A stretch of DNA of 35,141 nt from a virus, in IMG/VR virus record IMGVR_UViG_3300045118_000787, positions 1 to 35,141 of that record, one strand, 5' to 3'. The stretch's first letter is position 1; every line of letters starts with the position of its first letter. Below the pieces are notes generated by a model, which was given only the letters and a program-made list of their open reading frames with translations, was not told the DNA's origin and did not search any database. A program made the translations under genes and the position numbers. Of this stretch, positions 1-25,694 are shown piece by piece.

Positions 1-783
1 TTAGAACTGATCATAAACGATAGAGACATTCGCCTCGGAAGTCTTGGCTGATGTATCTCCTAACGTAGTAGCCCTATAAACCTCCACTACGAGAGGATTT
101 CCTAAACCTCCGGTGATGCCTTTATCGCCGGTATTCGTGAACGTTACGGTATTGGGAGACGTTCCATTCGCCGTCGCCGAGATATAACTCGCTTCGAGTA
201 TATCCTGTCTCCAAACCGTAGTGTCCCCGTCCCACACCTTCACAGTTACCGCGCCGGTTCCGGCCACCCTGTGAGTAAAACTCTTTATCCGGCTAAACTT
301 AGAACTATCCGGATTCACTCCGCACAGAAGATACTTGCTGGTGGAAGCGTCGCTATAAACGCTCGCAGCAGTAGTCTCATTCGTGCCGGGGGTAGCTATG
401 TTCTTCGCCAGTAAATATGAAGTTGCGAATGCTCTATAACCATCCGGTCCGCATTCAGCATGGAAATCAGTCACACTACCATTGATATAATCGACAACTT
501 CGCCGATCGTATCATAGGAAGTGCTACCGGTATTTATCGTGGTAGCCGTGGGAGTAGCGACATCCGAATACAACTTTAACACCACGTTGCTTGAAACCCC
601 AACGCCCGGATTTGTGCTTGATCCCGTATACCACACCCTGAACAGAACCGAACCATCCGAAACAACGGAACGACCTTTAGACTGCGCCCATACTTGTCTT
701 GCCAGGCCTTCGTCTACAGCCGCCGCATAGGCCGTCCCAGCTATCAAGCTAAGAACGGCGATTAAAACTAAAAACTTTTTCAT
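1..783 (-). CDS. Secreted-looking putative structural protein downstream of capsid
   Basis: 260 aa with a clean Sec-type signal peptide: MKK, a hydrophobic core, then an AYA-AA cleavage site near residue 22. The rest is Ser/Thr/Gly/Val-rich and looks beta-stranded, as in capsid decoration proteins or fibres. It starts 18 nt after the capsid stop behind a GAGGAGAA ribosome site and its TAA lies exactly at position 1. Its place straight after the major capsid gene suggests a head-associated or decoration protein. A signal peptide is odd for a virion protein assembled in the cytoplasm; an exported host-surface role is the alternative. I do not recognise the family. Confidence 0.8.
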   Translation of the reverse strand: MKKFLVLIAVLSLIAGTAYAAAVDEGLARQVWAQSKGRSVVSDGSVLFRVWYTGSSTNPGVGVSSNVVLKLYSDVATPTATTINTGSTSYDTIGEVVDYINGSVTDFHAECGPDGYRAFATSYLLAKNIATPGTNETTAASVYSDASTSKYLLCGVNPDSSKFSRIKSFTHRVAGTGAVTVKVWDGDTTVWRQDILEASYISATANGTSPNTVTFTNTGDKGITGGLGNPLVVEVYRATTLGDTSAKTSEANVSIVYDQF

Positions 784-801
784 CGCTTGTTCTCCTCTTG
801 T

Positions 802-1637
802 TTAGCTGTTGACGCCCTTGATCAGACCATGTAGCGCTTCAAGCGCCAGATACAATCCGCACTCTGACTCATACTGGTCCACCTGGCCTGATGTGGTGTA
901 TCTGTTCGATATATCCACATAAAGTTTGGTGTCCAGTCCTGAAAGATATCTATATCCGACGCTCGACATATCAACGATTATGCCGTAGGAACCGTAATAG
1001 CTTCCGTCCAGCAAGGGATGTTTGATGATGTTTAGCGTCCCGTGGCTTGAGATATACTGCTTTACCGCTATCCCGTAAGTCTCGGTCGTAGGAAGAGTCT
1101 GGAGCTTATCCCTGCCCCAGCCGTCTATTACCGAGCAAAGCCTCGGAGAAGCGAGAAGCGTCCTCTTTGACGAGGCCATGCTCCCCGGATATTTCATGAC
1201 ATCTTCGAGCCAGGTGTTAAAGTCGCTCTCTGTAAGCGACGCGCCTCCTGACAGAGAACCATCTCCCAACGTCTTTATATTGGAAGATATCCAGCTTAAA
1301 AGCCCTCCGGTCGTCCTCTCTTCCTCTTCCGAGGTAGTGATAGTCGTTGCCGGGGTCTTCAGGCTCTTTTCGCCGAATAGTAAAGCGTTCTCTATCTTGA
1401 TCAGATGAGCTATGCCCTTTGACTTCCTTAAGCGATTCAGTTCCGGCTCGCCATAAAGCTCTGTTGACATTATGGTATCCGGGACTTTTATCGACTCTTT
1501 GAAGCGCTGGGTATAGTTGGTGTTCGAGTCTACCTTCACCATCCTGTATGCGGAGACTCCACTGCCATCCTCATACGCCCCGCCGAGTATTCTGACAGGG
1601 TCGTTGTCGAGTCCGGCCGCGGCTGCAGTCGTGCCAT
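802..1637 (-). CDS. Major capsid protein, exon 2 (C-terminal part)
   Basis: This is the 3' exon of a split major head protein of the SU10/DUF5309 type (HK97 fold). The motif NYTQRFKESIKV, and the preceding DPVRILGGAYEDGSG read in the same frame upstream of the first ATG (1542), are typical of this family. A start at that ATG would therefore be false: the frame is open back to about 1640, where the intron ends. Joined to exon 1 (2340-2706) it gives 1203 nt, or 400 aa plus stop, a normal length for the family. The junction codon is predicted to be T+AT (Tyr), giving VVRGYGTTAAAAG. The protein forms the capsid shell. Confidence 0.85.
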
Positions 1638-2339
1638 CACTTTTGTTACTCTTGCTTTCGCAAGGGCAAGGTCATTTCTGCCTTGCTCTGCATATCACTA
1701 TGCAGGTCAGACTATATCATCGCGCCAAGACAGGGGATGGCGTGCCTTACGTTGAAGTCGTTGAAGATTGATTGGTGGAGTTTTTAAGTCTCTCATTTTT
1801 TGCCAATAATAATGGTCTTTTTCACCATAAACTTGTTTCCCATTTGATTTTAATTGACCATTCGGCAATCTATCCAAATCATCATTGCTTCCATAGAGAC
1901 TTATTCTGTAATTCAGATACTCCAAAAGAACCATTGCTTGGTCTTGTTTATTCACAAGATATGGAAGAACAAGGTTTATCAACTTCCGGGCAGATCTAAA
2001 CCCGGCAACTTTGATATCCATAGCAAACTTCCTATTGCCAGTCTTTAATGAATAATAGTATGTGAGATTATACATTGAATAAATCTCAGATACCTTTTTT
2101 AACATTCTGGCATCAGAATTTGTTACGCCTATATTCACACCTATTCTTGTTTTGTTATTCAGATAGTAAAGGATGAAATATCCCTCACCATCAAGAACCC
2201 CTGCTAACCAAGCAATATCAACCTTGCTGATTGTCTCAACTTGGACATTTTCACTCTTCGGTATTCCAAGTTCTTGAGAGTTTCCAGCATTTAATAAGGT
2301 TTGCATATTAAGGTTTCCCTCAATTGGGCCTATGGTTTA
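1638..2339 (-). mobile_element. Group I intron in the major capsid gene
   Basis: 702-nt intron read on the minus strand. P1: exon GGCU (2343-2340) pairs with GGCC (2330-2327), with the usual U.G at the 5' splice site. P10: exon 2 AUGG (1637-1634) pairs with CCAU (2335-2332). Core: AAUUGAGGGAAA (2325-2314) resembles the P3/P4 element of other group I introns; P5 is UUAAUA/UAUUAA (2311-2306, 2296-2291); an R-like element UUCAACGACUU; P8 CGCC/GGCG (1742-1739, 1726-1723); S-like GAUGAUAUAGUCUGA; P7 GACU/AGUC (1759-1756, 1713-1710). The P9 hairpin CUGCAUA-GUGA-UAUGCAG is 1705-1688, then a GAAA-capped hairpin near 1665-1651. The intron ends in G at 1638. An alternative 3' junction after G1640 (with the 5' site after 2339) also stays in frame. 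Confidence 0.85.
1707..2306 (-). CDS. Intron-encoded LAGLIDADG homing endonuclease
   Basis: 199 aa with one LAGLIDADG motif, WLAGVLDGEGYF (residues 33-44; acidic residue E41), so it should act as a homodimer. Such enzymes cut intron-less alleles at the insertion site and drive intron spread. The ATG lies in the P5 loop of the intron and the TGA falls in the S/P7 strand, so the coding frame runs across nearly the whole ribozyme core. The C-terminal ~30 residues (from about PPINLQRL) are translated core sequence and are probably not endonuclease fold. Only a weak GGG-type ribosome site precedes it. Base composition is more AT-rich than the flanking exons, consistent with transfer. Confidence 0.88.
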   Translation of the reverse strand: MQTLLNAGNSQELGIPKSENVQVETISKVDIAWLAGVLDGEGYFILYYLNNKTRIGVNIGVTNSDARMLKKVSEIYSMYNLTYYYSLKTGNRKFAMDIKVAGFRSARKLINLVLPYLVNKQDQAMVLLEYLNYRISLYGSNDDLDRLPNGQLKSNGKQVYGEKDHYYWQKMRDLKTPPINLQRLQRKARHPLSWRDDIV

Positions 2340-2706
2340 AGCCGCGCACTACAGTCAGGGTGTTAGATGATACACTCGACACCTTTACAACTTCGCCGGT
2401 CCTTTCATTCTTCACTAAATCATTGGCCTTGAAATACGACCCATGATCTACGACCCAGCTTGTCGCAACGGCGGTCACCGCCCCGTTAAGGGCGTCCGAC
2501 CACGGCTGGGGCTGTTCCTGAAGAATTTTGAAGGTGGCGTCTATTACTGAAGCCGAATTAAGGTTCTTTAACAGAACCGTAAACGGCGCGGCATCAGGCA
2601 TATAACGTGCGATGGATTTCGATACGTCATATTTGCGCTGTGCCGTCTGGACATTGTAATAACCGGAATTGGTCGTTACAATGGTTGGTGCTGGTGTATA
2701 AGGCAC
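2340..2706 (-). CDS. Major capsid protein, exon 1 (N-terminal part)
   Basis: 5' exon of the DUF5309/SU10-type major head protein: 122 codons plus one base. It covers the N-arm and first domain up to the strand SNTLTVVRG, after which related capsids continue with Tyr/Phe-Gly and Thr/Ala-rich sequence; here that continuation is in exon 2. Read through into the intron, the frame adds only LNHRPN before a TGA at 2320, which would give a useless 128-aa fragment. It is preceded by AAGGAGAAT as ribosome site, right behind the scaffold gene. Confidence 0.85.
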
Positions 2707-2716
2707 TTAATTCTCC

Positions 2717-3427
2717 TTAAATGAAATGGCTGTTTACGGCCCCGGCCTTTTCTATGTCCTCTAAGGTGGTGTCGGTTTCAGGGGTCTTTTTTCCTTTTTC
2801 GCCGGGCTTTGCCCCTGCGAGCATGGCTTCCCTGTCCTCGTCTTTACCCTTATCGGCGGCCTTCGCTTTGTCAGCCAATCGCTCCTTCACCATGTTATAG
2901 GCTTTCTTCAGGTTAGCCTTTATCTTCCTGGGTGAGACTTCGGGCTTATAGGAGTCAAACTCCGCCTTAATATCTTCGGAATTTTTCTCCATAAAGTCCT
3001 TGTCTATGTCAGGATCGGATTCGACCAAACCTTCGGTGGCATCCATAATCACGGCGGCGATTTTATTATCCGCTTTTTTATCGGCCACGACGTCTATCGT
3101 GTCGAGTATCAGGTCTACTGACTCGGCATCGTATCCTTTGTCGAGGAATTTCTGACGCTGGGCCTCTATTAAAGCGTCCTTTTGTTTTTCTGTCTTTCCC
3201 GCTAAAGCAGTGGACAACTTCTGGAGGTTATCGCGCACTTCCTTGTTCTCCTTCTCAAGCTTCGAGATAAAGGAATCCTTGTCGGAGTTCTGCTTGATTA
3301 CCTTGTCAAGCTTCTCCGACAGTTCTTTATTCTGCGCAGCGACTTCTTCCAGGGTCATCGTCTTCGGCTTTACGTCTTCTTCACCCGTCTTTGCTGGTTC
3401 AGCAACTGGGTCTTTTTCTTCCGGCAT
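2717..3427 (-). CDS. Putative scaffolding protein
   Basis: 236 aa, highly charged (Glu/Lys/Asp-rich), with a predicted coiled coil around residues 25-80 and a helical, Lys-rich C-terminal half. Position (portal, small genes, this, major capsid), length and composition fit a capsid assembly scaffold that templates the shell and leaves before or during packaging. The start follows AAGGAGATATAT. Sequence identity to known scaffolds is not recognisable; the call rests on synteny and composition. Confidence 0.7.
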   Translation of the reverse strand: MPEEKDPVAEPAKTGEEDVKPKTMTLEEVAAQNKELSEKLDKVIKQNSDKDSFISKLEKENKEVRDNLQKLSTALAGKTEKQKDALIEAQRQKFLDKGYDAESVDLILDTIDVVADKKADNKIAAVIMDATEGLVESDPDIDKDFMEKNSEDIKAEFDSYKPEVSPRKIKANLKKAYNMVKERLADKAKAADKGKDEDREAMLAGAKPGEKGKKTPETDTTLEDIEKAGAVNSHFI

Positions 3428-3463
3428 ATATATCTCCTTACCCTCTCTTACGAGGTCGGGCGG

Positions 3464-3583
3464 TTATATTCCAAACGCTTTTAGTATCGCAGTCCCTAAT
3501 ACCCTGATGGCACAGTCACACGCGTTATACGCGTCTCCTGTCAATGTCAGGGCTCTTACAACTATCTCACCCACTATGCCCAT
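3464..3583 (-). CDS. Small hydrophobic protein, 39 aa
   Basis: 39-aa open frame with a very strong GGAGGTAGGAG ribosome site just before its ATG. It contains aliphatic stretches (MGIVGEIVVRALTL and a similar C-terminus) and a CDC pair. It lies between the portal-linked genes and the scaffold. Function unknown; probably an amphipathic or membrane-associated micro-protein. Confidence 0.55.
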   Translation of the reverse strand: MGIVGEIVVRALTLTGDAYNACDCAIRVLGTAILKAFGI

Positions 3584-3624
3584 CTCCTACCTCCTTTCTT
3601 TTTCTTTCCGCATTTATGAATCAT
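3574..3624 (-). CDS. Possible 16-aa basic micro-peptide
   Basis: A 16-codon frame (MIHKCGKKKKGGRRWA) with GGAGGTGTGT before its ATG. Its end overlaps the start of the next gene by 10 nt, and its own codons supply that gene's ribosome site. It may serve only for translational coupling. Confidence 0.35.
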   Translation of the reverse strand: MIHKCGKKKKGGRRWA

Positions 3625-3733
3625 ACACACCTCCTCTCTCAAAAATAAACCTCATCGCACAAATAATGCTCCACCCAATGGCGGCTAATATAAAGAATGG
3701 AAACATAAGTATTATAGCTATATATCTTCTCAC
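3614..3733 (-). CDS. Small single-pass membrane protein, 39 aa
   Basis: GTG start overlapping the previous stop (GTGA at 3733-3730). One strong transmembrane segment spans about residues 4-27, with positive residues at both ends. Many such micro-proteins occur in this phage; the role is unknown. Confidence 0.5.
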   Translation of the reverse strand: MRRYIAIILMFPFFILAAIGWSIICAMRFIFERGGVYDS

Positions 3734-3954
3734 GTAAGGTGTTCCTTCTTGCCGGGTCTTTTAAGGGACATATCCTTGAGATCTTCTATCGGGGGTTTAG
3801 AGTTCCCCTCATTACCGAATATCTCCCCTACCACCCTTTTTTCTTCTTTTTTAGCCTCGCCTTGAGCGATCTTCTTCAGCCTCTCGGAAATCTCCTGTAA
3901 TGCCGCGCCCCTGAAATCAAGGTCAAGATATCCGCCTAAAATTTTAACGCGCAT
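3730..3954 (-). CDS. Hypothetical protein, 74 aa
   Basis: 74 aa, charged, with a short N-terminal beta-like stretch (MRVKILGGYLDLDF), a helix and a Lys/Pro-rich tail. It overlaps the preceding gene by 11 nt and has GGAAAAAT before the ATG. It lies in the head-morphogenesis block between portal and scaffold. No family recognised. Confidence 0.65.
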   Translation of the reverse strand: MRVKILGGYLDLDFRGAALQEISERLKKIAQGEAKKEEKRVVGEIFGNEGNSKPPIEDLKDMSLKRPGKKEHLT

Positions 3955-4345
3955 ATTTTTCCTTTAATGCCTCAGCCTGGATTACTTTTAGCTTCATCGA
4001 GGCTATGAATGTTAGGGTCCTCTTTATGACGGCGATTTCGGACTTTAACTGGACTTCAGTCATGGTTTCGCCTTCGCGGATGAGTTTTTGTATGCCCCCC
4101 TTGATGGTAGTCCGAAGGTGCGGTTCGACTATGTCCTTATAGTAATTTGACTTCAGGAACTCTTCAGACTCTTTGCCGAGCTTTAATATCAAGGCGTTCT
4201 GGTGGGCTATCTCATCCTGGAGTTCCTTCTCAATTTCCCTGCGTTTTAGGAAACTCTGTATCCTATTCCCGAATGACTTCTTCTTTACTTCTACATTCTC
4301 TACCGACAACATCTCATCGACCAAGTCTTGAAGAGTCAGGTTCAT
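3944..4345 (-). CDS. Hypothetical helical protein after portal
   Basis: 133 aa, almost entirely helical and charged, with likely coiled coils at about residues 30-65 and 95-130. The ATG overlaps the portal stop (ATGA at 4345-4342), so the two are translationally coupled. Position suggests a head-assembly accessory protein. No family recognised. Confidence 0.7.
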   Translation of the reverse strand: MNLTLQDLVDEMLSVENVEVKKKSFGNRIQSFLKRREIEKELQDEIAHQNALILKLGKESEEFLKSNYYKDIVEPHLRTTIKGGIQKLIREGETMTEVQLKSEIAVIKRTLTFIASMKLKVIQAEALKEKYAR

Positions 4346-6231
4346 ATCTGTCCTGTCTGCCGGGCTACATCCTCGGCGTTAGTAGCTCCTGGTAGTGGCC
4401 CCGGTATAGCGCCGCCTTTAGGAGGAGGAGCGAGTTTATCTAAAACAGCCTTTAATACCAGGGCCGCCTGTTCTCCGTTCTGTAATAACCCTTCTTGAGA
4501 TGCCTGGACGATTATCTGTAAAGCTTCCTGGGCGGGGTTAGCAATATAATCTTCCGCGTTATCTAACCCTAAAGCCTGGCCTATCTGCCTTACGAGTTCA
4601 GGGTGCTGGCCGTTATCCTGGTTTAAGATATCGAGGAAACGTATTAAGTTCTGCGCCCATGCGAGCTTATTCCCCATCATCGGAGAGGTCTTTACCATAA
4701 CATCAATGTTGCCTATTAACATATCGGGGGTGATGGTCTTACGAATGAGTTCACCTTCTGGGCCTACTATTCTGACCGCCTTCTCTTCAGGGCAGAATTG
4801 GGTGTTACGGTCTATCATCATGAGCAAGAGTTCTTTATGGGAGAAGTCTTTCAAGAGCCTTATGGAGAGGTCGAACCTGAAATTCGCCTGTTCTATCTGG
4901 CTCATTATCTCGGTCGCGGTGTCCTGTTTTGACGAGGGTTGGCCTGAAATAATATCACTTGAGCCTAAAGTCATGTTGATTAGTCTTTCCAGGTTCACCT
5001 GCTCATTCGTGGCTACAAGTGATTTATCGGTCTTTTGGATAGGTCGTATGGCAGTGTCAGGGTTACCTACGCATGGGTGTAGTCCGCGCATATTCCGCCT
5101 TAAGACATTGATGTATTCTTTGTCCACCTGCTCTATATTGGCGAAGTAGCCCGGATATACTATGTCGAGTATAGAGTCGAGCTTGGCGTTCTCTAAGTCC
5201 TGGGCGTAGTATTGTAGCCTTAAAATGGGCTTAATCTGCCCTAAAGCGAACATCTCGTGAGGGACTGGGGTGTCTAAAGCCATCACTATAGGTTTTCTCA
5301 TCTCGTAAAACGGAAACTTGTCCGGGCCGACATTACGCACGATGTCGTTTTCTATGATAGAGATTACAGAGTCATCCTCCCACATGGTAAACATCTCGTA
5401 GTGGGGGTTGTCATAGTCGTCGCTCTCTACAGTAGTCATGCCTCTATATGCCATCCTCTCGGTCCTGTTCCTGTCAAGTTGCCCGGCGCCGCGCTTGGTT
5501 TCGATAAGCTTCATGACAGCTTTCTTATCCCAGCCGTGAAACTCTGCTATCTCCGGGTTCTCCACCATTGATTTTAAGTATGCGGCCGAAGGTTCGCTCC
5601 TTATGATGAAATAATCCATCGCTTCGCGCTTCAGGCCGTTTACTTTGTTCCCTACAGGAGCCGGGTAGCAGTCGAATATGTCGAATGGTATGAGCGCTAT
5701 CGAGTCATAAACCGTCTTTTCTTTAGGCTTAAAGTCATAACCTATGATGTTCGGGTATAAGTTATTGCCCATTTCATCGGTGTATTTGGGGGTCCGGGAC
5801 TTGACCTTCTTCACTTCCTTCTCGTAGAACACCCCTGAAAAAGAGTTCCCGTAAAGCATGGCCTCTTTATACCAAGTCATGAAGAAAAATATCGTGTCGA
5901 TTTCATTGGAGAATTGGAACTTAGCTAAAGTGTCATGCGCCTCGGCCACTTCGTCATCTTCTTCCCCTACGCCTATCATCTTGAACCAGTCCTCACTGCC
6001 CACCATCGCCTGGATTATCCTGGGGAGTTTTGTCTCTATCTTGGAGAATACATACGGCACGAATACATTGGCCCTCTGGCCGGAGAGGATCTCGGCGTAG
6101 TTTTTGGTATAGCAGAGGTATAATGAGTATATCTCATTCCATAGATCCCTCATAGGCCGCAGGTAGTTCTCCGACCTCGTTATGCGGTCGAGTATCAGGT
6201 TCTTGGCGTAGATTGGCTCGTATTTCGGCAT
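4342..6231 (-). CDS. Portal protein
   Basis: 629 aa, in the size range of P22/SU10-type podovirus portals. The N-terminal helical region is followed by alternating beta/helix wing and stem segments and a Gln/Ala/Pro-rich C-terminus that could form the barrel/crown. It lies after the terminase genes and before scaffold and capsid, as expected for the dodecameric DNA entry channel at the head vertex. The start has a GGGAGCCATA ribosome site and overlaps the previous stop (TAATG). Assignment rests on length, synteny and general portal-like sequence character. Confidence 0.82.
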   Translation of the reverse strand: MPKYEPIYAKNLILDRITRSENYLRPMRDLWNEIYSLYLCYTKNYAEILSGQRANVFVPYVFSKIETKLPRIIQAMVGSEDWFKMIGVGEEDDEVAEAHDTLAKFQFSNEIDTIFFFMTWYKEAMLYGNSFSGVFYEKEVKKVKSRTPKYTDEMGNNLYPNIIGYDFKPKEKTVYDSIALIPFDIFDCYPAPVGNKVNGLKREAMDYFIIRSEPSAAYLKSMVENPEIAEFHGWDKKAVMKLIETKRGAGQLDRNRTERMAYRGMTTVESDDYDNPHYEMFTMWEDDSVISIIENDIVRNVGPDKFPFYEMRKPIVMALDTPVPHEMFALGQIKPILRLQYYAQDLENAKLDSILDIVYPGYFANIEQVDKEYINVLRRNMRGLHPCVGNPDTAIRPIQKTDKSLVATNEQVNLERLINMTLGSSDIISGQPSSKQDTATEIMSQIEQANFRFDLSIRLLKDFSHKELLLMMIDRNTQFCPEEKAVRIVGPEGELIRKTITPDMLIGNIDVMVKTSPMMGNKLAWAQNLIRFLDILNQDNGQHPELVRQIGQALGLDNAEDYIANPAQEALQIIVQASQEGLLQNGEQAALVLKAVLDKLAPPPKGGAIPGPLPGATNAEDVARQTGQI

Positions 6232-6786: not shown

Positions 6787-6861
6787 TCATAAGTCTGGTC
6801 GCCTGACCAAAAACCATATTAGCACTATGGGTATTACCACTATCACAATCGCCTGTATCAT
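6787..6861 (-). CDS. Membrane micro-protein, 24 aa
   Basis: A 24-codon frame overlapping the terminase stop (ATGA). It encodes a single transmembrane helix of Ile/Val/Leu followed by Arg-Arg (IWFLVRRPDL end). The overlap arrangement matches real genes in this window. Role unknown. Confidence 0.45.
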   Translation of the reverse strand: MIQAIVIVVIPIVLIWFLVRRPDL

Positions 6862-8138
6862 CGCGGATAGTGTCCTATGAAGGTTTCTTCGACGTTTAAC
6901 TTGGGCATCCCGGCGCCCCCCAGGACCATACACGACTGCATCAAAGCGTCGGCATAGTCCGGGCTTGAGAAGCCTAAGTCCTTCATGTCCTCTTTTGAGA
7001 TTATCTTCTTCTGGCCGTTAGAGCGATACTCGAACCTTATAGCTGAGAGTTGGGTTTTAAGCTTGTCATTATTCAGTATTTGTATCTGACCCCGATCGAA
7101 AAGCTCCTTTAATATCCAATAGCACTCGTCCCTTTTGGAGTAGAATTCGGGCTTTAGGCTCTTTTCTGAGGCGATAAACGCCCTCACGTTGGGCAGTTGC
7201 GCCTCGCGTAACATGTCAGTTACCCCCCCACCGACCCCAATATCGTCAATCACGTGGTAATTTGTCCTGTAATCGCGCCTTAAATCGATTATTCTGCCTA
7301 CGGTATGGGTAGTGTCCTGCCCCTTATAGCCTTGAAGGTAGATCTGCTTCCAGCCCATATTGGCCTTCTGGATGATGGAGATCACGGTTTCATCATCCCC
7401 GAAACGCGCTACATCGCAGGAGAGTATCTTCTGGCCTTCCGGGAAGAAGTTGTTTAGAGTAGCTTTCTCTATCAGGTGGTATTGGATGAGGAGGTCTGCT
7501 GAGTCCACGTCCTCCCATGAGTTCATCACATAGCGCTTGTAGTGGTTAGGGGCCTCCTCTTCCATGCGTTTTAGGTCCTGGATGAAGTCTTTGGGGAGGT
7601 TGTCCTGGTTATCGAAGGTGGTCGCCTCAAATAACTCAAATTCCTCTTTGGGGTTATTCTTCCACATCTTCCAGATCCAGTTATGGCCGTTGGTATTGCC
7701 GATGACTATACCCTGCCTAAAAGGGGCGTTCTCGCGCCGTAAGCGGTCCCGAAGGAAGGTAAAAGTTTCCTCGGTCTCGAACTCTTCAGCCTGCTCTATG
7801 GCAAATATCGAGAGGTTAAGGTTCTTTAAGACCTCCATTTCAGCGCCATGCCGGAACATGATGCAGGACCCATTCTTGAAATGATACTCTTTATTGCCGT
7901 CTACCTTCACTTCAAAGTAGCGCTCAAAATCCTTTAGGGTGGAGTCGCGTAGGTCTGTATATTCTTTCCTGACGATTATGGCGAGAGAGTCGGGGTGGGT
8001 CTGGCAGTAGTCCCATACTTTAAGAAGCATAAAAAGAGTTTTTCCCGTGCCGATGCCTGCTATTAGGGCCGGGAATCTCTTTAGCGAGCTTAAGAAGCTA
8101 AACTGGAATGGCTCTGCCTGTATCTCTAACTTGCTCAG
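6858..8138 (-). CDS. terL: Terminase large subunit with non-ATG start
   Basis: ATP-driven packaging motor and nuclease. The first ATG (8030) would leave a 390-aa protein without a P-loop. The same frame upstream encodes FPALIAGIGTGKTLFM, a classic Walker A, and runs back to a stop just upstream. The only suitable start is CTG at 8138 (426 aa), preceded by AAGGA at 8-nt spacing. From that start: Walker A 28-34, Walker B-like IFAIEQAEE 111-119, RNase H-like nuclease acids in LSCDVARFGDD (D242), VIDDIGVGGG (D298/D299) and SPDYADAL (D394, D397). It overlaps the small terminase gene by 41 nt. ATA at 8147 is a less likely start; a frameshift from the upstream gene is another option. Confidence 0.88.
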   Translation of the reverse strand: MSKLEIQAEPFQFSFLSSLKRFPALIAGIGTGKTLFMLLKVWDYCQTHPDSLAIIVRKEYTDLRDSTLKDFERYFEVKVDGNKEYHFKNGSCIMFRHGAEMEVLKNLNLSIFAIEQAEEFETEETFTFLRDRLRRENAPFRQGIVIGNTNGHNWIWKMWKNNPKEEFELFEATTFDNQDNLPKDFIQDLKRMEEEAPNHYKRYVMNSWEDVDSADLLIQYHLIEKATLNNFFPEGQKILSCDVARFGDDETVISIIQKANMGWKQIYLQGYKGQDTTHTVGRIIDLRRDYRTNYHVIDDIGVGGGVTDMLREAQLPNVRAFIASEKSLKPEFYSKRDECYWILKELFDRGQIQILNNDKLKTQLSAIRFEYRSNGQKKIISKEDMKDLGFSSPDYADALMQSCMVLGGAGMPKLNVEETFIGHYPR

Positions 8139-11892: not shown

Positions 11893-11960
11893 TCTCCCTC
11901 CAACGACTGAACTATGGCACGGGCGAGGTCTTTTATAGTCATATCTACCTCCTCACTCAT
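11889..11960 (-). CDS. Micro-peptide between two methyltransferases, 23 aa
   Basis: 23 codons overlapping both neighbours by ATGA. An internal ATG (17-aa form, MTIKDLARAIVQSLEGE) has a better GGAGGTAGAT site. It may be a coupling peptide or a tiny helical protein. Confidence 0.4.
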   Translation of the reverse strand: MSEEVDMTIKDLARAIVQSLEGE

Positions 11961-13228
11961 ATAAGCATCCCTTCGGTATTATTTATTCTTTTTTCGGATA
12001 TTTCTATATATTTCGGATTTAATTCAATGCCGATATAACGCCGCCCTAATTTCTTTGCCACTACTCCTGTCGTGCCTGCTCCAAAGAATGGGTCTAATAT
12101 GGTATCGCCCTTTTTGCTACCAGCCAATATGCACGGCCTAATCAAATCTTCGGGAAAGGTGGCGAAGTGGGCTTCCTTGAAGGGCTTGGTGGTTACTGTC
12201 CAGACAGAGCGTTTGTTGCGATCTGTTTTAGAACCATCAGTATTCCACCCCTTACCAACTCCTTGATAAATCCCATAAGGTTTCCCTGTGGGGTCTTTTA
12301 AATTCTTATACGAACTATTGTATTTTCCAGGATTTCCCTTTCTTTCATCCACAAAATCTTCCTTTATCGCCTCATTATCAAAATAATACTTCTGGCTCTT
12401 GGCTAATAAGAAAATGTATTCGTGTGCCTTTGTGCATCTGTCGGTTACGCTTTCCGGCATACAATTTGGTTTTGACCATATCAAATCTTGCCTCAAGAAC
12501 CAGCCGTCTTGTTGTAAAGCCATCGCTACCATCCAAGGAATCGGTATTAAATCTTTTGGCTTGACATATTGGCTAAATCTGCTATAATTTAAGCATGCAT
12601 TATAAGCGGACGAAACAACATAAGAAGAAGATGAGTCAGATTCTTTCGGGGAAACCAAAACCTTGGTTGAGGGGACGGAAGCGTCCCGAACATTCTGCCT
12701 TGATGAAGAAATGGTGGACTCCTGAACGCAGGGAGGCAAAACGCCAAGAGGCTCTTGGGAAGAATTTGAATGCTCGTTATCACGGTCTTTCTGCAAAGTC
12801 TGCTGCACGCCTTGTTCAACGAATTGGTCATTGTGAGCGATGTCAACATGATGGGACAAAATCTCGCCTCGGTGTTCACCATCAGAATCGCAACAAGCAC
12901 GACCATCGCCTTGAGAACATTGAGATTCTTTGTCATCATTGTCATATGATTGAACATCGGAAAGAGATTGGCTGGGCTGCCTACCACCAGAAGCGTAAGA
13001 CGACCCCAAATTAAGCCACAGAGTTCCGTCATCTTTCAGCACCCGTTTTACTTCTCGGAATACCTCAACGAGTTTCTGGACATACATTTCAGGGGTTTCT
13101 TCGAGACCGATTTGCCCCTCAATCCCATAATCCCGAAGTCCGTAATAGGGCGGGCTCGTAACGCACATCTGCACCGAGCAATCGGGGAGTTTTTTAAGTT
13201 CGGTTAAGCAATCGCCCTGTAGTATCAT
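11957..13228 (-). CDS. Beta-class DNA methyltransferase with an inserted HNH gene
   Basis: 423 aa, against roughly 280-290 aa expected for this family. Catalytic motif TSPPYYGLRDYG (S25-Y28) and the C-terminal SAM motif LDPFFGAGTTG show an N4-cytosine or N6-adenine methyltransferase of the beta (TSPPY first) type. Conserved blocks stop at about residue 82 (LGSSYASGG) and resume at about 225 (YVKPKDLIPIPW). The ~140 residues between are low-complexity, Ser/Asp/Gln/Cys-rich and are the antisense of a plus-strand HNH gene. No stop interrupts the frame, so an enzyme with a long loop could still be made. The start overlaps an upstream ORF stop. Confidence 0.88.
   Translation of the reverse strand: MILQGDCLTELKKLPDCSVQMCVTSPPYYGLRDYGIEGQIGLEETPEMYVQKLVEVFREVKRVLKDDGTLWLNLGSSYASGGRQPSQSLSDVQSYDNDDKESQCSQGDGRACCDSDGEHRGEILSHHVDIAHNDQFVEQGVQQTLQKDRDNEHSNSSQEPLGVLPPCVQESTISSSRQNVRDASVPSTKVLVSPKESDSSSSYVVSSAYNACLNYSRFSQYVKPKDLIPIPWMVAMALQQDGWFLRQDLIWSKPNCMPESVTDRCTKAHEYIFLLAKSQKYYFDNEAIKEDFVDERKGNPGKYNSSYKNLKDPTGKPYGIYQGVGKGWNTDGSKTDRNKRSVWTVTTKPFKEAHFATFPEDLIRPCILAGSKKGDTILDPFFGAGTTGVVAKKLGRRYIGIELNPKYIEISEKRINNTEGMLI
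12561..12588 (+). promoter_or_regulatory. Consensus sigma70-type promoter for the antisense HNH gene
   Basis: TTGACA (12561-12566), 16-nt spacer, TATAAT (12583-12588): perfect hexamers. The expected start (7 nt past the -10) is the A of the HNH ATG at 12595, so the transcript should be leaderless. The promoter lies inside conserved methyltransferase codons. Confidence 0.75.
12595..13014 (+). CDS. HNH homing-type endonuclease, antisense inside methyltransferase
   Basis: 139 aa. The N-terminal region has GKPKPWLRGRKRPEHS, a NUMOD3-like DNA-binding motif of homing enzymes. The C-terminal part is a zinc-stabilised HNH fold: CERC (80-83), VHHQNRNKH (H95/H96), N108, then LCHHCH (113-117) and H121. 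Likely a free-standing nicking or cutting endonuclease that spreads its own gene. It has no ribosome site; a perfect promoter puts the transcript start at the ATG. Opposite strand to all neighbours. Its last codons overlap conserved methyltransferase sequence, so the insertion is about 12600-12990. Confidence 0.88.
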   Translation: MHYKRTKQHKKKMSQILSGKPKPWLRGRKRPEHSALMKKWWTPERREAKRQEALGKNLNARYHGLSAKSAARLVQRIGHCERCQHDGTKSRLGVHHQNRNKHDHRLENIEILCHHCHMIEHRKEIGWAAYHQKRKTTPN

Positions 13229-19944: not shown

Positions 19945-20214
19945 TTAAAATAGTTTATTTGGGGTTTCTCCCAATACCGCTTTTATGTCAGTAATGATTA
20001 CATCCACTTCCTTGATTTCCTGCTCTGTCCGGCGGTGGAGTTTGGATACCACGGCCGTCATATCGTGTAAGCGCCTGATGAGATTGGCAAGAGTGTCTTT
20101 ATAGAGGGCGAGGTTCTGTTCTTTCTGCTTTAGGGTGACAGAAAGTTCTTTTAATCGGTGGCGATCCTGATCGGACATAAGGGAGACAAATGGGGTGTTT
20201 ATGGCTTCAGGCAT
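19945..20214 (-). CDS. Coiled-coil protein, 89 aa
   Basis: 89 aa with a nearly continuous coiled coil (about residues 15-80). Starts in TAATG overlap with the giant virion protein gene. Last gene of the late virion block; perhaps a chaperone or partner of that protein. Confidence 0.65.
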   Translation of the reverse strand: MPEAINTPFVSLMSDQDRHRLKELSVTLKQKEQNLALYKDTLANLIRRLHDMTAVVSKLHRRTEQEIKEVDVIITDIKAVLGETPNKLF

Positions 20215-23200
20215 TAGAATATCAACCTATTTCCACTCTTCTTTAATACGAAAGGTTTAGAGGTTTTCTTTTGGGATGAGTATTTATTCGGGAATATCTG
20301 TCCCCTCATAAGCCTCTCTATCTGTGTTCCGGCGGGGATAAGTGTCAGGACGGCCCTCCTCGCGGCCTTTGCCCTGGTTTCGGGTTTCTTCGCGCCTATC
20401 CCGAATCCCTGGCCTATGTTTTTTACGAACCTTACTATGCCCGGTTCTTCATACCTTCCAGCTGTAAAAAATGGGACTTTGGGAATAATGGCCCCGGCTC
20501 CATATGGTTTCCTCAAACCCATCTTTTCATACAGAGCATTTACGAGTAATGATGTTACGAGAAGCATCCAGAACGCCCCCCACCTTACCTTGCCACCCTC
20601 GACCTTCGTTATGGGCTTTAATAGGTTTTTAGGGAGATTCCCAAGACCCAAATCATATATAAGATAATTCATGGAATTAAAAGACCAATTCTGGAACTGG
20701 CTTAATATCGCCCCAGCCTTCGACCTCATATATGCGTTCATTTCGTATTTCTTATATCCTACCTGGGTCCGGCGCGCGATCGCGTCCGCATACTTCATTG
20801 CTTTAATCTGGTCATATTCCAGTTCTTCTATGCCCTTAAAATACGCCCCCACATATGTCGAACCAACGTTATTCATTTCTATCAGGTTGGTTACAAACCC
20901 TATCGCATCTTCTATCTTGTTAAATGTAGAGGGGTCTAAGTCGGGGTCGATGGTCCTGCCCTTAAGCATGACCGAGTGCTTAAACGCGAAATCCCTCCAC
21001 TCTTTCGTGCCTAAGAATTTCCCCATACCGACACTTAGATACTTGGGACGAAGTTCTCCCATTGAGGTGGTGAAGTTTGAAAGGTTCGTCACCCAGAAGT
21101 TGATATTCCCAAGTAATGCGCTTTTGGCAAAATGGGACCTGAACCAACTCACTGGAGCTGAATCTAAAATTTGCCCATATAGGTTCTGGTCGGCAATCGA
21201 CTTTTTGCCTTTGAGTTCACTTATAAGTCTATCTATCGCCTTATAAGCATTGGGTTGGCGCGCAAGGGCATATTCTATGAATTTTCTCGAATGGCGCAGT
21301 CCTGGTGTGTAATAAATGCCTTTTAATATGGTATTGCGATATATTTCATAGTTTCCTATGGCGTCATACTTGGTCCTGGGGCCGCGGCGCTTTAGGGCGA
21401 ATTGGTTAAAGGGCTGGTATCCTTTTGTGTAATCCCCTTTGCGGATCGCCTCCAATTGCGCGTCACTTACTTTGGATGTATCCTCTAACCTGCCTTCAAA
21501 AAATTCGTTTAGTAAGTTATGCTCCCTGATGTGGGTCATATAGTTTTTGCGATAGGGCATCTGCTTTGCGCCTATGGCTCGCATCACTTCGTTATATTCG
21601 GCTATCAGGGACTCGTATTTCGCGCGGAGATATTTGACGACCCTCTCTTCTTTAGGGGTGAGTGTCTTCCCCTCCTCGAATTTCCTCATCAACTCCGCGC
21701 TCTCTTTGGAGTTCTTCTCGATGCCCTCCTTCGCTTTTATGAGTTCAGTATTTTCTTTTACAAGCCTATCGAACATCGCGGAGTCGGCAGACATCCACAC
21801 TTGTAGGGTGTTATCGCCTAATATATTATCTTCCCACAATCTCCTCCTTGTGACTTTCTCTATGACGCGTGGAATGTCGAGGGACTGGGTTTCGAGGTTG
21901 TTTATGTCGATCCACCGCTGGGAGTCCTTATTGATTATCTCTATGACTTCACGGTCCTTGTCTATATCGCCATAAAGCTTGAATATCCTGGCCGGGGTTT
22001 CGGGTGTTCCTGACAGGGCATTGATATATGCCATCAGTTGGTCATAAGAGGCGTCTTTGTAGAAACGTATCAGACCCAATAGCGGTCCGGCAGATCTCCC
22101 CTTCAAGTTTTTATGGACGAGACCCTTATTCATCGCGGCCACATATAGGGCTTTTCGTTGTTCCGGGTCCCAAGCCTTCCCGAATGATGGGGTGCGTTCC
22201 TGGCCTGTCTTTATGAGTTCTTCTCTGATTTTGAGCCATTCGGCGAAGCGCTTGCTTTCTCCAGTAATTTCTTCTGTGAGGTATTCTTCTCCAGGTTTAA
22301 GTCCGACAAGATTAGCGCCGCCACGAGTAGTGTATTCTTTGGGTAACTTGTAGTTGATGAAGCTGATGATTTCATCTCTTCCTCCTCTGTTGGCCACAGC
22401 ACCTATCGACTCCTCTACATTGTAGGGAAGTTTATTGGCGCGTAGCCATCTATTTAGGTTTATATCCTCATTATTCGTGTATATGATTTTTACGCCACTC
22501 TTGGCAAGTGGTAGTAGGTGTGCCTCTAAATTTTGCTTATGACCTTCCCACGTGGAGTCCTGTGTCCCTACCGCATAAGTCCCCTCTTTAGCGGTGGGGT
22601 TCAAATATTGCGGATCTACCAACACGACTGTTTTGTCTGGGTCCAGCCCCCCGGCATTTACGGCTTTCGTGATCTCATCCATCGCCTGCCATGCATCCAT
22701 CTGGGTAATGGGGATTTTCCCATCGCGAGTCAACTCATTCCCCATATTTTTATCGACATCTGTTATCCTGGACATCGTATCTCTTATGGTGGACTTGTCC
22801 TGGGACGTCCTTATGATGCCCTGCGTCCAGGTATATTTACCGCCTTCTTTCGATATCCCGAATACCGATGTATTCTCAAGGAAGTAGTATATGGCGCTCG
22901 ATTCCGGGGACTTAAATCCATCAGATACCGCCTGCATTAGTAGCTTATTTCCGAATTGCTGTATTACATCCCTGGCGAACTGCGCCCTTTCTTTCAACAT
23001 CCCCCTTTGTAACCATTTGTTTAAGGCAGACCTTAACGCCTCGGAACTATATTTGTTCGGGTCTATCTCAAAGGCATATGCTATCTCCCGTATAAGTTGG
23101 TCCCTTAAAGTTTTTACGGTAGACTTCATCGTCTCGACTTTGGCGGGGTCCTGCATATTCTTGTAATAGTTATACCTCTCATCCGAAAGTTCGTTTAAGT

Positions 23201-25694
23201 GATAGTTCTCCGAAGGTATGTTATTAAATAACCCTATCCTATATCCCTTCGCCCCACCGAATAAATCATAGACGGTGGTTATGTCTTTACGGAGTTCGTT
23301 CTTTAATCCCTCGGAAAGCCTCGACAATACCTCGGATTTATTCCCAAGTAGAGTAAACGGCATCTCGGAAGTTATCTCGCGCTGTAATGATTGGTCGGTG
23401 TCCTGCCTTGTGTTGAGTAGCGATCCTCTCCCGACTAATGTTTCCTGGCGCTTTACCTTCTGGGGTTTTTCTTTCTTGGCTTTAGGTATGAGTTGTTTTT
23501 GGACGCGCAATCGAGCGCGCTTGTCGGCTTGGGCAACAGCCTTCCCTGATTTTATATTTATCTCATCCGCGAAATATTCGCTTATGAGAGAACGTAATTC
23601 GTTGTCGTTTTCTATCGGGAACCCTTCCTGTTGGAGCGTTATCACTAATTCGTCTGGGGTAAATCCTCTCTCGTCCGGGCTTGCGAATAGCCAATTTAAG
23701 TGTTTTAGGTCAGCGTATTCTCCTTGAGATTTGAGACTATATTTTAGCTTCCCCTTTGTGTATGCTTTGAGTGTCTGCTTCCTCTCAAAGTAGGCTTCCG
23801 ACATTTCCTTCTCTGCAATCTTCGCCAGTTCCTTATCTTCTTCTATTATCTGCTGTTTTATTTTCTCTATTTTCTCGGCGATGAATTGCTCTTCTTTTTT
23901 CGTGAAATCTAAATTTATATCATCTCGCTCGATAGATAATTGTTGCAGAGATTTTCCTTCTAAGATGCGCCCGATTATAAAGTCGCGCTCTGATTTATTG
24001 AGCATATCCATCACTTCGTCAGTCAGGTCGGCTTTAGATATAGGAGAGGGTTCTTCCTTCTTTATGGGTTTTCCTCCCCCCATAGGTTGACTAACAAGAC
24101 TTGCTTTTACTTCTGGAGTGAGTGGCTTATTAACTTCCATTACTGGAATTTGTTTTATCCCCATTCTTTTAGCAAGAATTGCCCGATGGTAACCCTCTTG
24201 GCTTCTTAATTTTCCGGTTTCTTTATCATATTCGAGGGAAGGTATATTCCATCGTTCGCCTTTTTTCAATTTATCTTGTAACGCTTTTATTTTATCCTCT
24301 GAAATTCTTTGCTTTTCTACAACATAAGTCTTAAAATCATCATAATTTTTCCAGTCTGACCTTTGATTTGGACGCATTGCTTCCCATTGCCCACGAGTTG
24401 CTCTTTCAAGATATTCATCGGGAGATATAAAAACAACTTTTCCAGTAATCCCTTTCACCTTTTCATAATATTCTCGTCGTGTCATACCATTAGCAACGAT
24501 AGTATTATCAAAATGGGAATCAAAATCTGAAATTCCTGTTTCTCCTTTAAATATATTTTGTCCCCTCACATACTCCTCAAGAGTGGGGATTTTCTCCGCT
24601 TCACTCAACGCCTCATTTACAAGTTGCTTCTTTACAGAGAGATCAAACCCTTCCTGTTCCTTGCCTTTTACGCCTTTTAAGGGTTCTATAAGTTTCGTCA
24701 AGCGATCCCGCTCGGCTTTAAGTTCGTTTATTTTGGCTTCGTCGCCTGTGATAGACTTTCCGTATGCCAAGGCTTCGTTAGTGGTCTTAAAGGATATCGC
24801 GGGCGCTTTCGCCTCTGGCGCAGGCTTTTGCTTTAGTATGTATTCGGCTATCCTCTGGGGAGTAAGGCTCGCTGCTTTCGCGCCGATGGCAAGAGCTGCC
24901 TTATCTATGGTTTCTTTCGGGAATGTCCCTGCAAACCCTTCCATTATGTTTTTGGCTATGTTTATTTCTTCAGGGTTAAATTGTGGGGCAGGAATTCCTC
25001 CAAAGAAATAATTTCCTCTCGGTAAACTTACACTCTCTTTCGCTATATCAGATATTACCTTGCCACCTACCCGTTCTTGTATTTGGCCGAGGATGCCCTC
25101 TTTTTTCAAGGCCGCCTTAAACCCTTCAAAAGATGGGTCTACATCGCCTATGAACCTTCCCGATTCTACCATCCTGGATACGCGTGGCTCTATTTTTATT
25201 CTATAATATGTCTTTAATATCCTGTCGGTCTCCGACATTCCGGCTAATTTCTTTACGCCACCTATCGCACCTGGTATCATAAGCACCGGATCGGCCAATA
25301 AATCAAGACCTGCCGCCACGAATTCCCCGGTAAGAGATGGAGTCTTGTCCAGGTCTATACCTCTTGTCTTTAATAGTTCTCTTCCGGTGATTTTAGGTTG
25401 TTTCTTCTCGAATGTTTCTATGCCGAATTTAATGGCGGGTCTTATACCTTCTTCGGGCGCTTTGGCAAAACGGAATAATGATTGCTGGAGTATGTTGAGC
25501 GCTCGTCCCACCGCTTCATACGATTCTACTTCTTCTGGGGATGGGGGGAGCAATTTTCGGACAATGGGTTGGGCAAGCGGAGTCAGCAAAGTAGACGCCG
25601 CCGTTTCAATTATAGACCTTGCCGGGATAGGTAGTTTCGGCTCTATATCAAAGTCTAACTTATTTTTAGGCTCTTTTAAATCGAAGTTTAGCAT
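20214..25694 (-). CDS. Giant polyvalent internal virion protein
   Basis: 1826 aa, probably injected with the DNA. Residues ~470-525 look ParB-like (LRSQEGYHRAILAKRMGIKQIPV). Residues ~778-1117 match the layout of a D12-class N6-adenine methyltransferase: PFTLLGNKSEVL (SAM entry), TVYDLFGGAKG in place of the usual PFxGxG, YHLNELSDERYNYY, then LVDPQYL (1025-1031) where DPPY is expected, TNNED, and a C-terminal ISFINY. The Gln in DPQY makes activity uncertain. Residues ~1350-1750 match the usual C-terminus of large phage polyvalent proteins, with hydrophobic segments (FWMLLVTSLLVNALY) that may contact membrane. A helical HTH-like stretch lies at ~570-600. Confidence 0.82.
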   Translation of the reverse strand: MLNFDLKEPKNKLDFDIEPKLPIPARSIIETAASTLLTPLAQPIVRKLLPPSPEEVESYEAVGRALNILQQSLFRFAKAPEEGIRPAIKFGIETFEKKQPKITGRELLKTRGIDLDKTPSLTGEFVAAGLDLLADPVLMIPGAIGGVKKLAGMSETDRILKTYYRIKIEPRVSRMVESGRFIGDVDPSFEGFKAALKKEGILGQIQERVGGKVISDIAKESVSLPRGNYFFGGIPAPQFNPEEINIAKNIMEGFAGTFPKETIDKAALAIGAKAASLTPQRIAEYILKQKPAPEAKAPAISFKTTNEALAYGKSITGDEAKINELKAERDRLTKLIEPLKGVKGKEQEGFDLSVKKQLVNEALSEAEKIPTLEEYVRGQNIFKGETGISDFDSHFDNTIVANGMTRREYYEKVKGITGKVVFISPDEYLERATRGQWEAMRPNQRSDWKNYDDFKTYVVEKQRISEDKIKALQDKLKKGERWNIPSLEYDKETGKLRSQEGYHRAILAKRMGIKQIPVMEVNKPLTPEVKASLVSQPMGGGKPIKKEEPSPISKADLTDEVMDMLNKSERDFIIGRILEGKSLQQLSIERDDINLDFTKKEEQFIAEKIEKIKQQIIEEDKELAKIAEKEMSEAYFERKQTLKAYTKGKLKYSLKSQGEYADLKHLNWLFASPDERGFTPDELVITLQQEGFPIENDNELRSLISEYFADEINIKSGKAVAQADKRARLRVQKQLIPKAKKEKPQKVKRQETLVGRGSLLNTRQDTDQSLQREITSEMPFTLLGNKSEVLSRLSEGLKNELRKDITTVYDLFGGAKGYRIGLFNNIPSENYHLNELSDERYNYYKNMQDPAKVETMKSTVKTLRDQLIREIAYAFEIDPNKYSSEALRSALNKWLQRGMLKERAQFARDVIQQFGNKLLMQAVSDGFKSPESSAIYYFLENTSVFGISKEGGKYTWTQGIIRTSQDKSTIRDTMSRITDVDKNMGNELTRDGKIPITQMDAWQAMDEITKAVNAGGLDPDKTVVLVDPQYLNPTAKEGTYAVGTQDSTWEGHKQNLEAHLLPLAKSGVKIIYTNNEDINLNRWLRANKLPYNVEESIGAVANRGGRDEIISFINYKLPKEYTTRGGANLVGLKPGEEYLTEEITGESKRFAEWLKIREELIKTGQERTPSFGKAWDPEQRKALYVAAMNKGLVHKNLKGRSAGPLLGLIRFYKDASYDQLMAYINALSGTPETPARIFKLYGDIDKDREVIEIINKDSQRWIDINNLETQSLDIPRVIEKVTRRRLWEDNILGDNTLQVWMSADSAMFDRLVKENTELIKAKEGIEKNSKESAELMRKFEEGKTLTPKEERVVKYLRAKYESLIAEYNEVMRAIGAKQMPYRKNYMTHIREHNLLNEFFEGRLEDTSKVSDAQLEAIRKGDYTKGYQPFNQFALKRRGPRTKYDAIGNYEIYRNTILKGIYYTPGLRHSRKFIEYALARQPNAYKAIDRLISELKGKKSIADQNLYGQILDSAPVSWFRSHFAKSALLGNINFWVTNLSNFTTSMGELRPKYLSVGMGKFLGTKEWRDFAFKHSVMLKGRTIDPDLDPSTFNKIEDAIGFVTNLIEMNNVGSTYVGAYFKGIEELEYDQIKAMKYADAIARRTQVGYKKYEMNAYMRSKAGAILSQFQNWSFNSMNYLIYDLGLGNLPKNLLKPITKVEGGKVRWGAFWMLLVTSLLVNALYEKMGLRKPYGAGAIIPKVPFFTAGRYEEPGIVRFVKNIGQGFGIGAKKPETRAKAARRAVLTLIPAGTQIERLMRGQIFPNKYSSQKKTSKPFVLKKSGNRLIF

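Follow-up and report, generated by a model that had tools for sequence, protein, structure and literature searches.

A tailed-phage major capsid gene interrupted by a candidate mobile group I intron with a LAGLIDADG endonuclease

Capsid-gene introns in phages and the locus analyzed

Phage group I introns include those of td, nrdB, Twort, and SPO1. According to one review, phage group I introns target polymerase, reductase, and terminase genes, and the usual phage enzymes are of the GIY-YIG, HNH, PD-(D/E)xK, and EDxHD types rather than LAGLIDADG (PMC3984707). Introns in capsid genes are nonetheless already known, in LittleE and in crAss-like Delta and Zeta phages. Gene 13 of mycobacteriophage LittleE, the major capsid gene, contains a probable group I intron of 819 bp, and the same article refers to another capsid intron, that of lactococcal phage Tuc2009 (PMC3706429). 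Among crAss-like phages, one Zeta capsid gene consists of five fragments, with domains typical of group I introns in three of the four gaps (PMC7886860). For the T5orf172 endonucleases, a capsid gene is reported in 31% of neighbourhoods (PMC10448857), and in a Bastillevirinae survey the word "capsid" is absent from the main text (PMC11878797).

The locus described here lies in a 35,141-base virus record, which was analyzed over its whole length (hereafter the window). Its minus strand encodes a large terminase, an SU10-type portal, a 236-aa ORF, and an SU10-type major capsid gene that is interrupted by a 702-nt insert (Table 1). Like phage group I introns generally, the insert combines a predicted P1-P10 architecture, a U·G pair, a terminal G, and a homing endonuclease ORF within a conserved gene (PMC3984707). 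With the LittleE intron it shares a LAGLIDADG-like ORF, a U before the intron, and a G at its end; it differs in that the LittleE ORF lies on the opposite strand and the LittleE capsid is HK97-like, from another family, and RT-PCR together with N-terminal sequencing proved that the LittleE intron is removed, where splicing of the present intron is predicted (PMC3706429). The Delta and Zeta introns are likewise group I introns in capsid genes, but of other phages (PMC7886860). The T5orf172 endonucleases belong to a different nuclease family, are mostly free-standing, and have terminase and reductase genes equally often nearby (PMC10448857).

Table 1. Features of the capsid locus, in window coordinates
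Feature	Positions	Strand	Description
Large terminase		minus	PF04466, 3.9e-10
SU10-type portal		minus	PF23899, 7.3e-19
Unassigned ORF, 236 aa		minus	
Exon 1, major capsid gene	2340..2706	minus	Starts with GTG at 2706; 122 full codons and 1 nt
Exon 2, major capsid gene	802..1637	minus	Includes stop codon
Predicted group I intron, 702 nt	1638..2339	minus	Begins after U2340; last base G1638
P1	2327..2343	minus	Exon GGCU followed by intron UAAACCAUAGGCC; GGCU pairs with intron GGCC; U2340 with G2330 (U·G) at splice site
P10, intron strand CCAU	2332..2335	minus	Pairs with exon 2 AUGG 1637-1634; 4 bp
P2 hairpin, GAAA loop	2307..2324	minus	Contains GAGGG 2321-2317; from fold and letters
P3, 5' strand CCUUAU	2294..2299	minus	
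P3, 3' strand GUAAGG	1745..1750	minus	Links both intron halves
P4 (UGCUGG/UCAGCA) around P5	2225..2289	minus	RF00028 positions 60-96 and fold
P7, 5' strand GACU	1756..1759	minus	
P7, 3' strand AGUC	1710..1713	minus	
P9 hairpin	1688..1705	minus	
Two hairpins beyond P9	1651..1686	minus	P9.1 1686-1666; P9.2 1664-1651
Intron ORF, 199 aa	1707..2306	minus	Single-motif LAGLIDADG homing endonuclease (LAGVLDGEG); intact

Further observations were made elsewhere in the window. For the terminase (6858-8030 and just upstream), a Walker A-like motif (AGIGTGKT) is encoded in frame ahead of any ATG/GTG/TTG; translation therefore probably begins further upstream at a different codon, unless there is a frame shift. 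A DNA methylase-like ORF (11957-13228, minus) runs in frame through the stretch opposite an HNH/NUMOD3 endonuclease ORF (12595-13014, plus), an overlap that recalls the ShiLan element, in which an out-of-frame HNH gene is hidden in a phage methylase (PMC11855218). An ORF of 1826 aa (20214-25694, minus) matched no Pfam family up to E 0.1; by eye it has a DPQY-like motif, recalling a methyltransferase.

The insert and its endonuclease

The initial annotation, made from the letters of the window, had proposed that a group I intron separates the halves of an SU10/DUF5309-type major capsid gene, with splice sites at 2340/1637. Profile matches, folds, and a ranking of possible joints bear this out. 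The ORF at 802-1542, within exon 2, matched PF17236 (SU10_MCP) with an E value of 1.3e-29 (104 bits, above the cut-off of 24.1), and exon 2 also matched phrog_1328, major head protein (3.3e-18). Exon 1 alone matched no Pfam family and scored 65 bits with our own capsid profile. When 2706-2340 and 1637-802 are joined, the annotated 400-aa frame is reproduced without a stop, and the resulting protein can be aligned with its relatives over the whole length and matches PDB 9in6, the major capsid protein of VP1 (3.1e-13). Read without joining, every frame of the insert contains stops, that of exon 1 closing at insert nucleotides 18-20. The predicted letters at the spliced joint are ..GCGCGGCT then ATGGCACG.., and the peptide spanning it would read ..VVRGYGTTAAAAGLDNDPVR...

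To place the joint by homology, a capsid profile was built from 83 intact relatives, excluding the window. The joint predicted from structure scored 320.3, second of the 1470 open in-frame joints close to the insert ends; the best (321.2) is one base away. At this position (RGY-GTTAAA, the hyphen marking the joint) the joined protein aligns without a gap to six annotated phage records (20-27% identity). Its nearest uncultured relatives (L008-L010, ∼42% identity) have the same codons uninterrupted, and all 14 listed relatives read through; a matching gap in homologues lacking an intron was looked for in these relatives and was not seen. The G+C content of the intron (0.376) is lower than that of the exons (0.50 and 0.51), which fits an acquired element. 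No intron-less sister allele was found: the closest phage relative, L088 (terminase 99%, portal 100%), stops short of the capsid gene. Scans of viral contigs using the endonuclease alone or the joined capsid protein alone confirmed no relative.

The structural features of group I introns, i.e. the conserved P3-P4-P7-P9 core, the U·G pair in P1, and the terminal G, are present, and the P1 pairing previously read from the letters is confirmed; the candidate P10 read with it has 4 bp. A covariance search with Rfam RF00028 matched the insert at 35.1 bits (E 4.3e-7), placing P7, P8, and P9; this is below the curated cut-off of 50 bits, which is a detection limit rather than a defining trait, and at that cut-off the whole window gave no match. 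A weak second match covered P4-P5 (14.2 bits, E 0.79). P1-P3 were wrongly set within the ORF; the ORF inside the intron explains both this misplacement and the splitting of the model. In minimum-energy folds, the 5' part contains P1, P2, P4, and P5 (z -3.52, 0 of 200 shuffles equally good), and the 3' part contains P7, P9, and two more hairpins (z -3.06, 1 of 200 shuffles equally good). Of the elements that had been called readable at the outset, P7 and P9 are thus found in both fold and Rfam alignment, and P5 is found in the fold with a weak Rfam match, but P8 appears in the Rfam alignment and not in the 3' half folded alone, which favours a different pairing. That first reading of the insert overlooked P2, P3, P4, P9.1, and P9.2, as well as the ORF. 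By sequence, structure, and pairing statistics, the insert is a group I intron, and is predicted to self-splice.

The ORF at 2306-1707 matched phrog_5046 (E 2.6e-14) and I-OnuI-type PDB chains (2.7e-5). Its match to PF00961 (E 0.015, 16.6 bits) was under the cut-off of 23.1; a relative encoded in the split capsid gene L025 passed with LAGLIDADG_3 (7.1e-9). PHROGs labels phrog_5046 as HNH; its members here bear LAGLIDADG motifs, one scoring over the curated cut-off of a LAGLIDADG Pfam family and the rest under. The ORF spans P3 to P8. Its AUG comes immediately after P2 and its UGA immediately after the 3' strand of P7, so gene and ribozyme overlap almost entirely. Ribosomes might bind at the GAGGG in P2 to start on the ORF, and translation could impede folding of the overlapped catalytic core.

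We put the probability that a mobile group I intron occupies the major capsid gene of this tailed phage at roughly 94%, a reading in which splicing and homing are predicted from one metagenomic contig. The transcript would fold, guanosine would attack after U2340 in P1, and exon 1 would then attack after G1638, aided by P10, restoring a capsid mRNA for the 400-aa protein. Efficient splicing is to be expected, since a ribosome on unspliced RNA would halt at UGA 2322-2320, leaving a stub of just 128 aa. The endonuclease, presumably translated from unspliced RNA, would cut capsid alleles that lack the intron, close to the conserved RG(Y/F)-GTT codons, and the intron would be copied in as the cut allele is repaired.

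Because selfish genes do insert into genes, and because the case comes from a single contig, the capsid gene might instead be truly broken by a free endonuclease gene, the phage or the assembled contig being defective. We consider this very unlikely, since a bare gene would not carry P1, P10, P3, P7, and a terminal G marking the joint that homology selects, both exons are otherwise open, and inserts in other capsid genes behave alike (see below). The long open frame in each half, together with an in-frame ATG at 1542 in exon 2, could also suggest that the capsid is made as two polypeptides, separately synthesized and jointly assembled. This is scarcely credible: an exon 2 ORF standing alone would be short of 31 residues, including the conserved GTTAAA stretch, the insert contains a group I core, and relatives encode a single chain. 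LAGLIDADG domains are common in inteins, which brings an intein to mind, but this was rejected because the capsid frame is closed by a stop within the insert; a group II intron was rejected because group I was the only Rfam intron family matched. An intein or another intron class is accordingly given next to no weight, and the mobile group I intron is the reading retained below.

Split capsid genes in other contigs

Relatives of the capsid gene were collected in two scans, each retaining its best-scoring matches, so that split genes may be missed. In the first (best 80 of 346 relatives), 70 distinct genes comprised 63 whole, 3 split (L015, L025, and L031), and 4 cut by a contig end. The second (best 80 of 413), whose query alignment included these three split genes, added L182. 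Over both scans, i.e. the best 80 of 346 and best 80 of 413 relatives, there were 121 distinct genes (111 whole, 4 split, and 6 cut by a contig end), so that 4 of 115 distinct whole-or-split SU10-type genes are split. The initial claim that introns are far rarer in capsid genes than in polymerase, terminase, or reductase genes needs tempering in view of this count and of the published LittleE and crAss-like cases. In 24 bacterial-genome loci with such capsid genes (plus strand, oriented loci), there was one match each and none in two pieces. Further split SU10-type genes, L101 and L114, came from the endonuclease scan described below; the first exon of L114 matched phrog_1328 (5.5e-5).

Twelve introns were placed: those of the window, L015, L025, L031, and L114, two in L182, and five in L101. 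L114 was placed via P1 and P10 of 8 bp each, and scoring covered the other 11. In these, the joint that P1 and the terminal G define had rank 1, 2, or 6 out of 439-1737 open joints, counting ties; several scores were tied. The first L182 intron differs in that a C, paired with G, replaces U ahead of the splice site; a U-only P1 test ranked it no better than 59, and C was permitted beside U in the later ranking. Across the 12 introns, P1 averaged 6.6 bp with the intron's own exon vs 3.2 with those of the others (0 of 5000 permutations), a score that favours own pairs to some extent since the joints were partly chosen using P1. P3 averaged 6.3 in own and 4.1 in cross pairs (0 of 20,000 permutations), with the P3, P4, and P7 anchors picked by eye. 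For P10 the difference was not significant (4.3 vs 3.7; 356 of 5000 permutations). Insertion sites of L015, L025, L031, and L114 are a few codons apart (..FKWF-ED..), and the rest lie elsewhere. Rfam gave no match in L031 and L025 up to E 1, and among L101, L182, L114, and L015 it matched only L114, which indicates that the family model is insensitive to these introns. The two L182 endonucleases matched phrog_4645 and that of L015 matched phrog_11023. The L182 capsid gene (1-3049) lies on a 101-kb contig and has at least two introns.

The most fragmented case is L101 (a 106,486-base contig, G001), where six exons, extending over 3.7 kb, together encode a capsid protein of ∼395 aa. From its sequence, this single gene (708-4414) seems to be interrupted by five introns, apparently all of group I. 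Exon 2 is 33 nt long, and exons 1 and 3 are shorter than 80 nt. Introns 1 and 2 (220 and 171 nt) have no endonuclease ORF, introns 3 and 4 contain phrog_5046 matches, and intron 5 has an ORF that is open in the exon 5 frame and LAGLIDADG-like by eye, with no match to a Pfam or PHROGs family. Two additional LAGLIDADG-type ORFs lie downstream (4442-4906 and 4999-5388). Among the publications consulted, the nearest case is the crAss-like Zeta capsid gene in five fragments (PMC7886860).

Endonuclease relatives and capsid genes

A scan with four endonucleases, all of them capsid-linked, returned 63 loci. Two of these, L124 and L127, are on the same contigs as L031 and L025, which had each supplied an endonuclease to the query. 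The fetched DNA was searched for capsid genes using ten capsid ORFs named by PHROGs, the window capsid protein, and the SU10 profile. A capsid gene was present in 35 of the 63 loci, near-copies and the two query contigs counted: in 28 of the 30 listed first (L099-L128, with L107 and L113 as exceptions) and in 7 of the remaining 33. In L125 and L139 it is over 1 kb away from the endonuclease, and in L132 and L133 it is on the opposite strand. Besides the SU10 type, the capsid families named were PHROGs 1357, 9953, 334, 4523/371, 267/283, and 1005; not all are unrelated, since L121 matches both 1357 and 334.

In L116 (phrog_334 positions 1-275 and 300-378) and L122, profiles match the capsid gene on either side of the interruption; it was seen by eye only in L099, L103, and L121; the upstream pieces of L099 and L121 matched no family. 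In L106, L126, and L128, the endonuclease adjoins an apparently whole capsid gene. The phrog_1357-type gene of L100 (2982-5261) seems to be cut again, by ∼960 nt, downstream of the endonuclease. A relaxed scan for core elements found some combination of them in 18 of the 63 loci, a count that has no null. Among the 16 non-capsid loci whose neighbours were scanned, 9 had no named neighbour and 7 had one: DNA polymerase (L113 and L147), methylase (L129 and L140), terminase (L137), portal (L159), or dehydrogenase (L154).

In a quick tree of 50 endonucleases (6 short-match loci dropped and 9 near-identical rows merged), the capsid label changed 10 times vs 16.3 in shuffles, with 0 of 500 as low; the query was capsid-linked, near-copies promote clustering, and the "other" label takes in loci without a named neighbour. 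At 99% support, one branch separates 27 rows (22 capsid) from 23 rows (7 capsid). Named neighbours are lacking for all 5 non-capsid rows among the 27, and none of them is therefore shown within another known gene. The window endonuclease belongs to a group of eight rows (support 91, not starred) in which all rows are capsid-linked, to SU10-type, phrog_1357, and phrog_334 genes.

These patterns point, tentatively, to a group I intron lineage that carries single-motif LAGLIDADG endonucleases and has specialized on phage capsid genes, of several families and at many codons. L101, with its five introns, would be the extreme, and production of the most abundant virion protein in these phages would depend on serial ribozyme splicing. 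We rate this reading at somewhat less than even odds, lowered because the query was capsid-linked and because capsid neighbourhoods have been published as common for another endonuclease family. Searches of open-licence papers yielded no account of a capsid-specialized LAGLIDADG lineage.

Taken singly, the window intron is of an ordinary kind in a less usual gene, and it is its kin that make it useful; the part worth following is a LAGLIDADG intron lineage that may favour capsid genes. Annotation pipelines may call such genes truncated or missing, which matters since the capsid gene is a common marker. Related endonucleases across capsid families raise the question whether the gene, its genome position, or a shared DNA motif is being tracked. 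Because a capsid gene needs very high expression, introns within it would test how efficient phage splicing has to be.
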